Of a DNA stretch of 64,000 nt, positions 27,437 to 33,077 are shown in pieces. The stretch lies in NCBI GenBank assembly GCA_903842345.1, contig CAIMLR010000028.1:186001-250000 (forward strand), read 5' to 3'. Within the stretch, counting starts at the first letter, position 1; the number at the start of each line of letters is the position of its first letter. The translations under genes and the position numbers were made by a program. The notes under the pieces were generated by a model. The model had not been told where the DNA came from and ran no database searches. It saw only the letters and a list, made by a program, of their open reading frames with translations. This DNA comes from an uncultured Myxococcales bacterium (GTDB lineage Bacteria; Myxococcota_A; UBA9042).

Positions 27437-27504
27437 GGCGCTCCGCCGCTGAGTTGGGTGCCGCGAAGTCATCGTTTATTTTGGCCATCTGTCAGGAGTT
27501 TCTC

Positions 27505-30500
27505 ATGCATCGCAGTCTGAACTTTCGTACCTTTGCCGTTTCTTGCAGCTTGCTCGCCATCACCGCCTGCGGTGGCGGCGTCGTCGGCGCAGATCAGGCG
27601 TTCCTGAACGCGCTGGACGGTCAGGACCTGACCGACGTGGACCTGGACGGCATCGACGTGCCGGACATTGCGGGTCTTGACGTCGACGTGCAGTTCCCGG
27701 ACACGATTGGCAAGGATGCGGACGTTCAGCCGGACGTTCAGCCGGACGTTCAGCCTGACACCCAGCCGGATGCGCCGAATCCGTGCCAGGGCAAGGACTG
27801 CAACGATCAGTCGCCCTGTACGACCGACAGCTGCGACGCCGCGACCGGCAATTGCCTGCACGCGCCGACTGAAGCCGCGTGCTCGGACGGCTTGGATTGC
27901 ACGACGGACGCCTGCCAGAACGGCGTGTGCGTGGGCGTGCCGAACGACGTGAGCTGCACCGACGAGAACGCGTGCACGGACGACGTGTGCGACCTCGCGC
28001 AGGGCTGCAAGCACCAGGTGTTGACCGGCACGAACTGCAACGACGGCATCGCCTGCACGGCTGAAGACCTGTGCGCGAACGGCACGTGCGTCGGCATGCC
28101 CAACGCGGCGACCTGCAGCGACGGCAACCAGTGCACCACGGACGTCTGCGACCTGAAGCTCGGCTGCACCAGCACCTTCTCGGCCAACGCCGCGTGCGAC
28201 GACGGCAACGCCTGCTCGACCGGCGAACTCTGCACCCAGGAAGGCTGCGGCGGCGGCACGTACAACAAGTGCGACGACGGCATCGACTGCACTGTGGACA
28301 GCTGTGACAGCGCGACCGGCGGTTGCAGCCACATCGCGACCGACAGCCTCTGCGACGACGGCATCGCGTGCACCCACGACGCCTGCACGGACGGCGCGTG
28401 CGCGAACGCAATCGACAGCGTGCTCTGTGACGACGGCAACCAGTGCACCTCAGAAACGTGCGTCGCGGCGGTCGGCTGCAAGTACAACAACCTCGTGGAC
28501 GGATCGGAGTGCACCGATGGCTCGAATTGCACGCTGGGCGACGCCTGCTCGGGCGGCAACTGCGTGTACGAAGCCCTGATGAACTGCGAAGATGAGAACG
28601 TCTGCACCAACGACTTCTGCGATCCGGCGGCCGCTTGCGTCCACATGGGCAACAACCTGCCGTGCGACGACGCCAACGGCTGCACCTACAACGACGGCTG
28701 CTACGGCCCCGGCTTCTGCGGCGGCGTGCTCGCGGCGTTCGACATGGTCTACGCGGCGACGCCGACTGAGATGGCCTATGCGATCACGACGACGGACGAA
28801 GGCGGCTTGGCCGTGGTGGGTTCCAGCGACGCGACGCCGAGCAACATCCTGGAAGTCCTCTTCATGGAGACGGACGCGAACGGCAACACGACCAAGAAGC
28901 TGCTCTACGGCTACAACTATGAAGAGCGCGGCAACGCGATCACCGTCGCCCCGGGTGGCTATGCGGTCGCCGGCTTCCTCGCCGCTGCGCCGACGCCCAG
29001 CGACGCCTACGTCGTGTACATCGCCGAGGACCCGACGCAGACCTGGAAGAAGATGTACGGCGGCGCCGGTTCCGACACGGCGAACGGAATTCTCGCGGTC
29101 GACGACGGCTTTGTGGTTGCGGGTACGCGCACGAGCGCCACGAACGTCCAGTACTGCTGGGTGTTCCGCCTCGACCACGCGGGCAATGTCATGTGGGAAC
29201 AGATCCTCGACCAGCAGGGCCCGTCCGCGTGCAATGGTCTGACCACGGCCGCCAATGGCGACATCGTTGTCGTGGGCACGTCGCAGTACGGCACGCTTAC
29301 GGGCAAGCCGCCGACGCCGAGCGCTGGTCCGCCGCCGATCACTTCCTATGCGTTCATCGCGCAACTCTCGCCCCAGACGGGCGAGATCGCCTGGGAGCAG
29401 GTTTATAGCGGCATGACGTTCATCGGTGGGGCGGGCAAGCTCGTCGTGCAACCGCAGGCCCAAGGCGTGGCGATCGCCCGCGCGGCCGACGGCGGCTTCT
29501 GGGTGCTCGGTTCCCTGTCGCAGTCGAACATCGCCGCCAAGGGCGGTTTGCTCCGCGTGGATGCGTTCGGCGGCGTGAAGTGGAGCCAGATCCTGAACTC
29601 GGAGACGAACAATTCGTTTGGTCGCGCGCTCGCCGCGCTGCCCGACGGCGTCGCCGTGTTGGCAGACTGGAGCGAGAATCCCTATCTCGCCGGCACGTAC
29701 TTCCCGGCCGTCTATCGCTTTGACGAAACCGGTTCCCAGACGTTCGTCTATGCGCGCACGTCGTACACCCAGGCCACTGGGCGCGGCATCGCCATCTCGG
29801 GCAAGCGCCTCGTCGTGACCGGCTTCCAGTACGACGCCGGCACCGGCGCCGACCCGTTCATCTTCGCCATCGACGGCTATGGCCATGGCACGTGCGAAGC
29901 CGTGGGCGTGTGCATTGACCAGACGCTGACGAGCTGCGCGGATAGCAGCCTCTGCACCATCGACGGCTGCGACACCAACGCCGGCTGCACGAACACGAAC
30001 AAGAGCTGTGACGACGGCAATGCGTGCACCAACGACTCGTGCGACGCGATCACCGGCGGCTGCGTCCACACCGCGAACACGGACCCGTGCGCGTCGCAGA
30101 TGGCGTGCATGGTGGGGCAGTGCTCCGCCGGCCAGTGCATGCAGTCGCCCAAGGTCTGCACCGATGACAACAACCCGTGCACGAACCCGGGCTGCGACCC
30201 GATGTCCGGCATGTGCAACGCGCCGAGCATGACCCCGATGCCGTGCGACGATGGCGACCCCTGCACTTCGGCTTCTTCGTGCATGGGCGCGAGCTGCATG
30301 GCGATGCCCGGTCCGAGCGTGTGCCCCGTGGGCCACGCATGCGCGTCCAACAACGCGTGCCTCACCGGCTATTGCCAAAACGGTCTCTGCGCCAATGCGC
30401 CGCCGACGTGCATGGACGGTGCCAAGAATGGCGGCGAAAGCGACGTCGATTGCGGCGGCGGCACGTGCCCCGCCTGTCCCGCCGGCAAGCAGTGCTTCCT

Positions 30501-30585
30501 GAACGGGGATTGCCAGGCGCTTCCCGGCATGATCTGCATCATCACGGACATCACCATGCCCGGCGTCTGCTCCATTATGAACTAG
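27505..30585 (+). CDS. Large Cys-rich surface lipoprotein with Dictyostelium-type repeats and a propeller-like centre
   Basis: A 1026-residue predicted lipoprotein (Cys22 in AITAC) from ATG 27505, preceded by CAGGAGTTTCTC. Residues about 72-88 are a DVQP tandem. Residues about 92-410 and 800-960 are arrays of Cys repeats of the form CDDGN.CT.D.CD...GC.H, the Dictyostelium extracellular-matrix repeat pattern, all cysteines presumably disulfide bonded. The centre (about 411-790) contains recurring segments like [33 protein letters not shown] and [15 protein letters not shown], which suggest a beta-propeller of about seven blades. The C-terminus carries the motif [19 protein letters not shown] infer a surface-exposed structural or adhesive protein; no catalytic domain is seen. 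Its stop overlaps the convergent MOSC gene by 4 bases. Confidence 0.85.
27721..27768 (+). repeat. 12-bp tandem repeat encoding DVQP
   Basis: Two identical copies of GACGTTCAGCCG, a third with one change at the last base and a diverged fourth (GACACCCAGCCG) encode [16 protein letters not shown] in the linker just after the lipidation site. Exact tandem copies of this kind can change number by slippage. Confidence 0.9.
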
Positions 30586-31175
30586 CGAATTTCGGGAGGC
30601 GGCGGTCGGTGCAGCACGCGAATCGCGTCACCGACCGCCACCACGCCCGCGTGCGTCACGCGCATGTACACGCCGCGCAGATTGTGGCTGCGCGTGGGCT
30701 TGCGCGCCACGAACTTCAGCGCCTCCTTGCCAAACCGCGCCTGGAACTTGCTGCAGCCGTTGTGCGGCATGGGCGTCACAACCAGCGTCGCGCCGCCCAT
30801 CTGCAGCGTCGAGCCAATCGGCAGGCTGCCTGCCGTCAAGTCCAACTCCACAATCAGGTTGTCGCCAAAAAGCGTCAGCGGCTGGCCGTTCGCGACCATC
30901 TCCGCCACGCCGCGCTCCATGACGGTCAGCTGCCCGTTCATGGACTTGTGCGGCTTGCGCCCCCACGCGTCGCCAGGAATGCCGCTCGTCGGCGTCAGGT
31001 CCACGCGCTCCGGGCACGCGCGCAGCCCCGCGTCACCGCGCCGCACAATCAGGTGCACGCGCCCCACGTCGCGATCCGGCCGCGGCTGCGTCTTGTAGGC
31101 GTCCTGCAGGTCCGCCAGCGTGCGGAAATACCGCGCATCGCCCACGGAGTTGGAGTGGATGGGCTCGTCAGGCAT
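30582..31175 (-). CDS. MOSC domain protein
   Basis: A 197-residue protein with the MOSC (molybdenum cofactor sulfurase C-terminal) fold, related to YiiM-type proteins. The predicted essential Cys is in [15 protein letters not shown], and [30 protein letters not shown] is the core barrel. Unlike most MOSC proteins it has a Tyr/Arg-rich N-terminal leader and a short C-terminal strand ending [10 protein letters not shown]. Such proteins are linked to sulfur carriage for molybdoenzymes or detoxification, but no molybdenum enzyme is nearby. It starts 3 bases after the stop of the PilT-type ATPase gene and is probably co-transcribed with it. Confidence 0.88.
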
Positions 31176-31178
31176 CGG

Positions 31179-33077
31179 CTACTTCTCGTGGTAATCTTTG
31201 CCAAACCGCTTGGCCAGGTCGGTCTTGTCAATCGCCTTCATCAGCGCTTCTTCGTATTCAATCTTGTTGTCGTTGACCAGCTTCTCCAACTGCTCGTTCA
31301 GCAACATGTTGCCCTGCGCCTTGGCCGTCATCATGATGTTCATGATCTGGTGGTTCTTGCCTTCTCGCACCAGATTGGACACCGCGTGGCTGCCCACGAG
31401 CACTTCCAGCGCGGCAATCCGCCCGCCGCCCTTCTTCTTGCACAGCGTTTGCGCGACGACGCCCTTCATCACTTCTGAAACCACCGCGCGAATCTGGCTC
31501 TGCTGCTCCGACGGGAACACGTCGATGATGCGGTCCACCGTCGAAATCGCCGTCGATGTGTGCAACGTGCCAAACACCAGGTGCCCCGTGTTCGCCGTTT
31601 CCAGCGCGAGCTGAATCGTCTCCTGATCGCGCAACTCGCCCACGAGCACGATGTCCGGATCCTCGCGCAGTGCCGCCCGCAGCGCGCGGGCAAAGCTCGT
31701 CGTGTGCGGTCCGACTTCCCGCTGGTTCACCAACGCCTTTTGGCTGTTGTGCACAAACTCGATGGGATCTTCCAGCGTGATGATGTGCGTCCGCCGGTTG
31801 CGGTTGATGTAGTCGATCATCGCCGCCAGCGTCGTCGATTTGCCCGAGCCCGTTGGCCCCGTCACAAGCACCAGCCCCTTGGGGTGATCGCACATCTTCT
31901 GGATGCTGATCGGCAGCCCGAGCTGCTCCAGGGTCAGGATTTTCTGCGGAATTTGCCGCAGCACCGCGCCGATGCCCCGGTGATCGCGGAACACGTTGAC
32001 GCGAAAACGCGCGACGTCCGGCAGCGCGTAGGCAAAGTCCGTGTCGTTGTCCTCCAGGAACTGCGTCTGATTGCGCTCCATCATCGCCGGCGCCAGCAAA
32101 TCCCACACCGCGGACTCCGTCAGCACGGGCGCTTCGGCGATCTCGCGAATCTCCCCATCCAGGCGAAAGCGCGGCTTGTGCTCCGCCGACAAGTGCAAAT
32201 CGGACGCGCCTTCCGCGACCATCCGCCGCAGCAGCGGGTCCAGCTTGGGCGCGGAGAGCTTGCCAAATGGCGTCTTGCTCATCGGTCGGCTCTGGCTCGG
32301 CGTCGACGTCGGCGTGGCGATCGGCTCGGGCGCGGCAGTCGCCGCCGGCAGTTGGACGTCCGCGAGCTCCGGCATCGTCAGCAGCAGTTGATTGAACGCG
32401 CTGGCGTCAATCCGCATCGGCAGCACGTCCAGGCCCGGCAGGAAACTGCGCGATGCGTGCAGCGCCAGCGAGGTCAGGTCATCGACAAAACCCAGCACCA
32501 GCTGCTGGCCATGGGACCCCAGCGGCAACACGCGCTGGCGATGGATGAACTGGACCGGCAGCATCGTCGCCACGTCGGGCGTCGGCGGATTGGCGGCCAG
32601 ATCGTAGAAAGGCAGTGGCACCTTGCGCTCGGCCTGAAGCGACCGCTGGGCCATCTCGCGGGCGAGCGTCAGCGCGAACGTCGGCGCGCGCTCGGCCAGC
32701 GCCTGCAGCAGCGTCGCGGGAATCTGGAAAAGCAGCACCTGGGGATCAAACGCGACCGCGGACATCCGCCGCGGCAGGCCCAGCAACGCCTCGGCGTCGC
32801 CGATCATCTCCACTTGCTTGGGGCGGTCGATCTCAAAGGCCTCCGTCATCCCCGGCGGCACCATGCGGAGCGACACGAGCCCGCGCAGGATCACGTGGCA
32901 CGCGTCGGCGCGCTCGCCCTGATTGCCGATGACCTCGTCCTGCCCACACGCGCAGAGCACGCCCTGGCTGGCAAACCACGCGAGGGTGTCGGCGTCGATG
33001 GACTTGAAGAGCGCGAGCGTCTGCAGCGCCTGCACCACCTTGGGCTGCAAATCAGGGGAAACTGGCTGCATTTTCAT
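31179..33077 (-). CDS. PilT-type motor ATPase fused to cyclic-nucleotide-binding and GspE-N/MshEN-like domains
   Basis: A 632-residue cytoplasmic protein with three parts. Residues about 15-140 look like a cyclic-nucleotide-binding (Crp/Fnr sensor) domain: LFKSIDADTLAWFA, a GNQGERADACHVILRGLVSLR core and a C-terminal helix. Residues about 155-235 look like the N-terminal domain of GspE/MshE ATPases (VATMLPVQFIHRQRVLPL followed by LVLGFVDD). After a Pro/Thr/Ser linker (about 244-272) comes a complete PilT retraction ATPase (about 275-632): GASDLHLS, Walker A GPTGSGKST (407-415), Asp box LREDPDIVLVGELRD (470-484), His box HLVFGTLHTSTA (499-510). Ordinary PilT is about 345 residues and has none of the first two domains. 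No other pilus gene is in the window; it lies 20 bases after the 2052-residue surface lipoprotein gene. Confidence 0.88.
   Translation of the reverse strand: MKMQPVSPDLQPKVVQALQTLALFKSIDADTLAWFASQGVLCACGQDEVIGNQGERADACHVILRGLVSLRMVPPGMTEAFEIDRPKQVEMIGDAEALLGLPRRMSAVAFDPQVLLFQIPATLLQALAERAPTFALTLAREMAQRSLQAERKVPLPFYDLAANPPTPDVATMLPVQFIHRQRVLPLGSHGQQLVLGFVDDLTSLALHASRSFLPGLDVLPMRIDASAFNQLLLTMPELADVQLPAATAAPEPIATPTSTPSQSRPMSKTPFGKLSAPKLDPLLRRMVAEGASDLHLSAEHKPRFRLDGEIREIAEAPVLTESAVWDLLAPAMMERNQTQFLEDNDTDFAYALPDVARFRVNVFRDHRGIGAVLRQIPQKILTLEQLGLPISIQKMCDHPKGLVLVTGPTGSGKSTTLAAMIDYINRNRRTHIITLEDPIEFVHNSQKALVNQREVGPHTTSFARALRAALREDPDIVLVGELRDQETIQLALETANTGHLVFGTLHTSTAISTVDRIIDVFPSEQQSQIRAVVSEVMKGVVAQTLCKKKGGGRIAALEVLVGSHAVSNLVREGKNHQIMNIMMTAKAQGNMLLNEQLEKLVNDNKIEYEEALMKAIDKTDLAKRFGKDYHEK

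Follow-up and report, generated by a model that had tools for sequence, protein, structure and literature searches.

The stretch of DNA analysed here, referred to as the window, comprises 64,000 nucleotides from the genome of an uncultured Myxococcales bacterium (G000), and carries a gene in which a CRP-type cyclic-nucleotide-binding domain (CNBD) and a GspE-N/MshEN domain precede a PilT motor core. Judged from its sequence, the 632-residue product is a genuine PilT to which an unusual regulatory arm is attached. The reading that we favour, and consider fairly probable, is that this fused PilT is an ordinary retraction ATPase of a T4aP system to which a regulatory arm has been added, that it has displaced the operonic pilT, and that in the family of the window the arm is either independent of ligand or answers to some other signal.

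The control of pilus dynamics known so far involves expression of the machine, partner proteins and the action of c-di-GMP on extension ATPases, which bind it through their MshEN domains, and PilB and PilT compete for the same socket (PMC11656802). In the literature searched, which comprised open-licence papers, no report of a CNBD–PilT fusion was found. A retraction ATPase with a CRP-type domain of its own would mean that retraction receives a direct allosteric input.

Gene layout and motor core

The original prediction gave the bounds of the open reading frame exactly, and its description of an intact PilT core with Walker A, Asp box and His box agrees with the alignment, in which all three elements correspond to those of Pseudomonas PilT (Table 1). 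Residues 279–619 score 454.9 bits with the PilT/PilU family model TIGR01420 of NCBIfam (cut-off 319.1), the Pfam T2SSE profile matches residues 279–596 at 172 bits, and the structures in the PDB closest to the core are those of PilT, with E values down to 1.6e-107. His506 of the His box also aligns with the Pseudomonas protein, and the roles of the catalytic glutamate and of the His-box histidine in the PilT ATPase are supported by earlier work (PMC6858323).

Table 1. Position of the fused gene, its domains and motifs, and the adjacent genes within the window
Feature	Residues	Window position	Strand	Evidence
Fused CNBD-GspE_N-PilT gene, ATG start	632 aa	31179..33077	(-)	ORF, Pfam/NCBIfam, orthologs
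CRP-type cyclic-nucleotide-binding domain (CNBD)	about 15-145	32643..33035	(-)	PF00027, Foldseek, dN/dS
Phosphate-binding-cassette region, IGDAEALLGLPRRMSAVA, Glu96 in place of small residue	92-109	32751..32804	(-)	Column counts, signature pattern
GspE-N/MshEN domain, without RLG c-di-GMP motif	155-236	32370..32615	(-)	PF05157
Linker rich in Pro/Ala/Ser/Thr	237-276	32250..32369	(-)	Identity, dN/dS, pLDDT
PilT core	277-632	31182..32249	(-)	TIGR01420, PDB PilT matches, dN/dS
Walker A, GPTGSGKST	407-415	31833..31859	(-)	Conserved in alignment; aligned to Pseudomonas PilT
Asp box, IITLEDPIEF	432-441	31755..31784	(-)	Alignment with Pseudomonas PilT
Walker B and catalytic Glu481, DPDIVLVGELRD	473-484	31626..31661	(-)	Aligned to VGEMRD segment of Pseudomonas PilT
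His box, TGHLVFGTLHT	497-507	31557..31589	(-)	Alignment with Pseudomonas PilT
AVSNLVRE, counterpart of the PilT AIRNLIRE motif	565-572	31362..31385	(-)	Alignment with PilT structures
Upstream neighbour, Dicty_CTDC/LamG lipoprotein-like gene	2052 aa	33098..39256	(-)	Pfam, synteny; judged outside the system
Downstream neighbour, MOSC-domain gene		30582..31175	(-)	Pfam, synteny; position not conserved

The N-terminal arm

The identification of the N-terminal segments as a CNBD and a GspE-N domain, also part of the original prediction, is upheld by sequence profiles for both and by fold matches in the PDB for the CNBD. The Pfam profile cNMP_binding (PF00027) matches residues 46–130 with 26.8 bits on the whole protein, just below the cut-off of 27.5, and with 28.5 bits, above that cut-off, on residues 1–278 alone; MshEN (PF05157) matches residues 155–232 with 24.4 and 26.2 bits, over its cut-off of 23.1 in the whole protein and in residues 1–278. 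Both profiles match in 33 of the 33 N-termini of fused proteins that were scanned. Structure prediction had been suggested as a check on these domains, and the AlphaFold2 model built for residues 1–259 (mean pLDDT 81.9) finds its best Foldseek matches in the PDB among the cyclic-nucleotide domains of GlxR, CRP, PKA and PKG, with E about 1e-10. Because its best 50 fold matches are CNBD proteins only, the GspE-N assignment rests on the sequence profiles. Linker residues 242–259 have a pLDDT under 50, and AlphaFold2 modelled the whole protein too poorly (pLDDT 53.5) for use.

Comparison of the members of the genus gives a dN/dS of 0.26 in the CNBD, 0.20 in GspE-N and 0.07 in the PilT core; in the linker it reaches 1.13, and identity there is 35%. 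The two domains are thus constrained and the linker evolves neutrally. The RLG-type 24-residue c-di-GMP motif, searched for in the MshEN domains with a pattern that we take to represent it, is absent from every fused protein, and binding of c-di-GMP by the MshEN domain of the fused protein was rejected for this reason. The length of 24 residues and the duplication of the c-di-GMP motif of MshEN are those given in the literature (PMC11656802).

The phosphate-binding pocket

It was originally proposed that the ATPase could be switched directly by a cyclic nucleotide, with the reservation that the sensor had no clear phosphate-binding cassette. Each of these statements divides along a family boundary, as the cassette is altered in the family of the window and canonical in most of the distant orthologs, and the proposed switching gains support for the latter and becomes doubtful for the former. 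We looked for the phosphate-binding signature with a pattern of the PROSITE PS00889 type. Of the 23 fused proteins from outside the family of the window, 16 match it; of the 19 from inside, none does, neither the window protein nor the 18 other members. All 23 orthologs outside the family have Gly, Ser or Ala at position 96, and all 19 inside have Glu or Asp, the latter count representing one ancestral change that was kept and not 19 independent events. Position 105 is Ala in all 23 proteins outside the family and variable inside, and Glu/Asp94 and Arg103 are mostly retained in the family of the window.

The small residue of cyclic-nucleotide pockets lies against the cyclic phosphate. On the strength of the sequence, an acid at position 96 should therefore disfavour the ligand, and could pair with Arg103. 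The exchange of Glu and Asp at this position suggests that the charge is under selection, although the ancestral change itself is shared. The pocket in the family of the window is probably rewired and ligand-independent, and to judge from sequence it may contain a Glu96–Arg103 salt bridge. Direct gating by a cyclic nucleotide seems plausible for the distant orthologs and doubtful for the window protein. Nine class III cyclase domains are encoded in the genome of the window, so that cAMP or cGMP is probably made there. On contig C15 (G000:C15:62385-67186), a class III cyclase domain and a PilT-like paralog are separated by about 3.2 kb.

Distribution and origin of the fusion

The fusion itself, for which a search of relatives for the same domain order had been suggested, proved to be real. 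Of the 22 genomes that represent the window's family, 18 have it at full length and two more have it truncated at a contig end; it is missing in the remaining two (G008 and G017). The same domain order occurs in about 40 genomes from 13 families of Myxococcota: 6 of the 12 families sampled from the class of the window, and seven further families among 379 genomes sampled from the phylum, where 19 genomes were counted by hand from rows covering the N-terminal part together with ORFs. This conservation, both in the family and in others, led us to reject chance or misassembly as the source of the fusion. A scan of named genomes with a narrow N-terminal alignment picked up the nearest relatives alone, all of them MAGs under the titles Myxococcales, Deltaproteobacteria or Proteobacteria, and several of them from lakes according to the title.

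A tree of 85 motor cores, built by a quick search with SH-aLRT as its only measure of support, shows that the fused PilTs have a single origin in Myxococcota: the 35 CNBD-fused cores form a single clade (SH-aLRT 100) and group with PilT, not with PilB. The sister of this clade (joint branch 98) consists of Myxococcota PilTs that are extended by a duplicate of the PilT N-terminal domain, an identification to which hhalign gives a probability of 97.6%. The operonic PilTs from this class are placed apart in the tree, together with the PilTs of Geobacter and Aquifex, and this separate placement leaves a derivation of the fused core from the operonic PilT unsupported. Genomes that hold both forms suggest that the fused PilT began as an extra copy beside the operonic one. 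Since the CNBD and GspE-N module is also found on PilB/GspE-type ATPases, the arm may have come from such a protein by domain shuffling. In one distant case a CNBD–PilT gene (L135:4637-6445, G114:C37) lies directly downstream of genes that, to judge from sequence, are bacterial microcompartment shell-like (about 1995-2581).

Pilus gene content

At the loci examined the fused gene never adjoins pilus genes, and the earlier remark that none are nearby is true locally, the T4aP system of the window's genome being found on other contigs. Contig C27 carries pilB-pilC-pilS-pilR followed by a prepilin gene (pilA) at 216988, and contig C42 carries pilM, pilN, pilO, a pilP-like gene and pilQ, where PilP is assigned by operon position and homology only. 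The PilQ secretin of this genome (ORF L085:13145-19894, G000:C42) is 2249 aa long, with an AMIN domain at residues 59–152, a secretin domain at 2083–2239, and about 1700 residues between AMIN and the first secretin-type domain.

The gap between pilB and pilC in the window's genome is 17 bp with no pilT in between, the fused gene lying on another contig, and in all 16 family genomes where one contig carries both genes, the pilB and pilC profile hits are too close together to leave space for pilT. In the sister families the operon order is pilB-pilT-pilC-pilS-pilR, with pilT between pilB and pilC in seven operons, and the interval of 1128–1361 bp encodes a PilT of about 365–450 aa. The operonic pilT has, on this gene content, been lost in the family of the window. 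Operonic and fused PilT are found together in five genomes outside the family (G022, G035, G038, G039 and G050; in G035 a contig end truncates the fused gene, so that the core alone is visible).

The fused gene is the sole PilT-family member above the model cut-off in the window's genome, where two PilT-like paralogs reach 314.5 bits (contig C4; cut-off 319.1) and 244 bits (contig C15). In G005 and G012 it is the only PilT-type gene of any score, PilB/GspE-type ATPases apart. A T4aP set and no operonic pilT in the family indicate that the fused PilT is probably the main retraction motor; it would have taken over as the main PilT of the family, and in some genomes as the only one. Some members of the family and class have single ORFs in which two complete PilT cores follow each other as a fused PilT–PilT dimer, of 749–769 aa (L089:9169-11418 in G010:C171, and others in G016:C25 and G018:C80) or of 1013 aa in G043 (L090, G043:C819). 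In the genomes with such a tandem, as in the window's genome with its two paralogs, another motor could do the retraction. As for the two family members in which the fusion is missing, G008 is also devoid of the pilB/pilC pair and of any other PilT and keeps pilM, pilP and pilQ (L087, G008:C98), possibly as a remnant or as a repurposed alignment complex, and in G017, which is 92% complete, the pilC pair is present and no fused PilT was found.

Neighbouring genes

The gap of 20 bp between the fused gene and the 2052-residue LamG/Cys-repeat gene was given correctly in the original prediction, which went on to suggest a test for conserved linkage to LamG lipoproteins. Such linkage is confined to all five members of the genus and to one neighbouring genus (G005). 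The other family loci examined have no same-strand LamG/Cys-repeat neighbour and often have glycine-cleavage and folD genes nearby, and in G016 a Cys-repeat protein adjoins the fused gene in the opposite direction. With linkage this limited, and with six LamG proteins in the window's genome, the link to surface display is weak, and on synteny a functional tie to the LamG lipoprotein was rejected as a general feature. On the other side of the fused gene, the MOSC gene was recognised in the window and in G002 only. The plus strand of the window (27454-30585) encodes another Dicty_CTDC Cys-repeat protein, 1043 aa long, whose gene shares a 4-bp end overlap with the convergent MOSC gene.

Mechanism and alternatives

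If the fused PilT acts as an ordinary retraction ATPase, its hexamer would dock on PilC and retract pili by ATP hydrolysis as usual, and the N-terminal arm around the ring may control either docking or ATPase activity. The arm of the distant orthologs would be gated by cAMP or cGMP. In the family of the window, Glu/Asp96 would sit beside Arg103/104, where the phosphate of a ligand would otherwise lie, and the arm would be held in a ligand-independent form or would read another signal. The fused motor seems to have replaced the usual stand-alone PilT, and this points to the motor itself as the place where pilus retraction is regulated. The significance of the family contrast is that orthologs with a canonical pocket are an extra PilT whereas those with an acid in the pocket are probably the main one. 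A bolder formulation, which we offer tentatively, is that of a retraction motor that senses a second messenger directly through its CRP-type domain and that in one family displaced the housekeeping PilT once its pocket had become self-liganded, an acidic side chain taking the part of the cyclic phosphate and so locking the domain in the active state.

An unlikely alternative is that cAMP or cGMP binds the CNBD in the family of the window as well and switches the ATPase on or off. The fold and Pfam match of the domain, the signature in 16/23 orthologs outside the family, the largely retained Glu/Asp94 and Arg103 and the nine cyclase domains of the genome are all compatible with it, but the signature is found in 0/19 proteins of the family itself, and all 19 carry, at the position predicted to point towards the phosphate, an acid that should repel cyclic phosphates. 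The altered pocket would suit an arm that serves as a docking or polar-localisation module without a small-molecule ligand, like the N-terminal domains of PilB, in which the CNBD fold acts as a scaffold; a GspE-N domain without the RLG c-di-GMP motif and purifying selection on both domains fit this too. We nevertheless think it rather improbable, as the canonical pocket in most of the distant orthologs points to ligand sensing as the role that the arm had at first.

Two further proposals concern the partners of the motor. The fused PilT might be a PilU-like helper that modulates retraction by another PilT-like paralog, such as those on C4 or C15 in the window's genome, and paralogs do exist there and in several relatives, just as fused and operonic PilT coexist outside the family. 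The chance of this appears slim, however, given that no PilT-type gene besides the fused one is present in G005 and G012 and that the paralogs of the window's genome score below the family cut-off where the fused protein exceeds 450 bits. Slighter still is the prospect that the fused PilT and the LamG/Cys-repeat lipoprotein form a separate motility or surface-display system. The 20-bp gap on the same strand and the adjacency in the five genus members and G005 speak for such a private system, which the original prediction had put forward, but it is not borne out: other family loci have different genes at the neighbouring position, six LamG proteins are encoded in the genome, and T4aP genes are present elsewhere in it, as a set without a normal pilT of its own.

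Comparison with known systems

The fused protein combines features of several well-described groups. With the PilT retraction ATPases (Pseudomonas 3jvu, Geobacter 6ojx, TIGR01420) it shares the full-length core at residues 279–619 and every catalytic motif. It departs from the standard PilT in its 276-residue N-terminal extension of CNBD, GspE-N and linker, in the location of its gene away from the pil genes, and in the grouping of its cores in a Myxococcota clade of their own. The extension ATPases PilB, GspE and MshE likewise have a GspE-N/MshEN domain ahead of the motor core, but the core of the fused protein is of the PilT type and the c-di-GMP motif of MshE is missing. The CNBDs of CRP/FNR and of PKA/PKG have the same fold and, in the case of the distant orthologs, the same phosphate-binding signature; unlike CRP/FNR, the fused protein has no DNA-binding domain, and in the family of the window the Gly/Ala of the CRP/FNR and PKA/PKG pocket is exchanged for Asp/Glu.

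Within the phylum, the Myxococcota PilTs with a duplicated N-terminal domain (L120-L132, L152, L153 and L157) form the sister clade and are likewise extended at the N-terminus, although their extension is a second PilT N-terminal domain and not a CNBD; some loci of this group carry two such genes in tandem. The same CNBD and GspE-N module is found in the CNBD-MshEN-PilB-like ATPases of a sister family, f5 (ORFs L154:4518-6506, L093:9023-11011 and L094:9227-11272, with cNMP_binding at 45.5 bits in L154). Their N-termini resemble those of the fused PilTs with a best phmmer E of 6e-23, whereas their motor core is of the PilB/GspE type and falls outside the PilT part of the tree.
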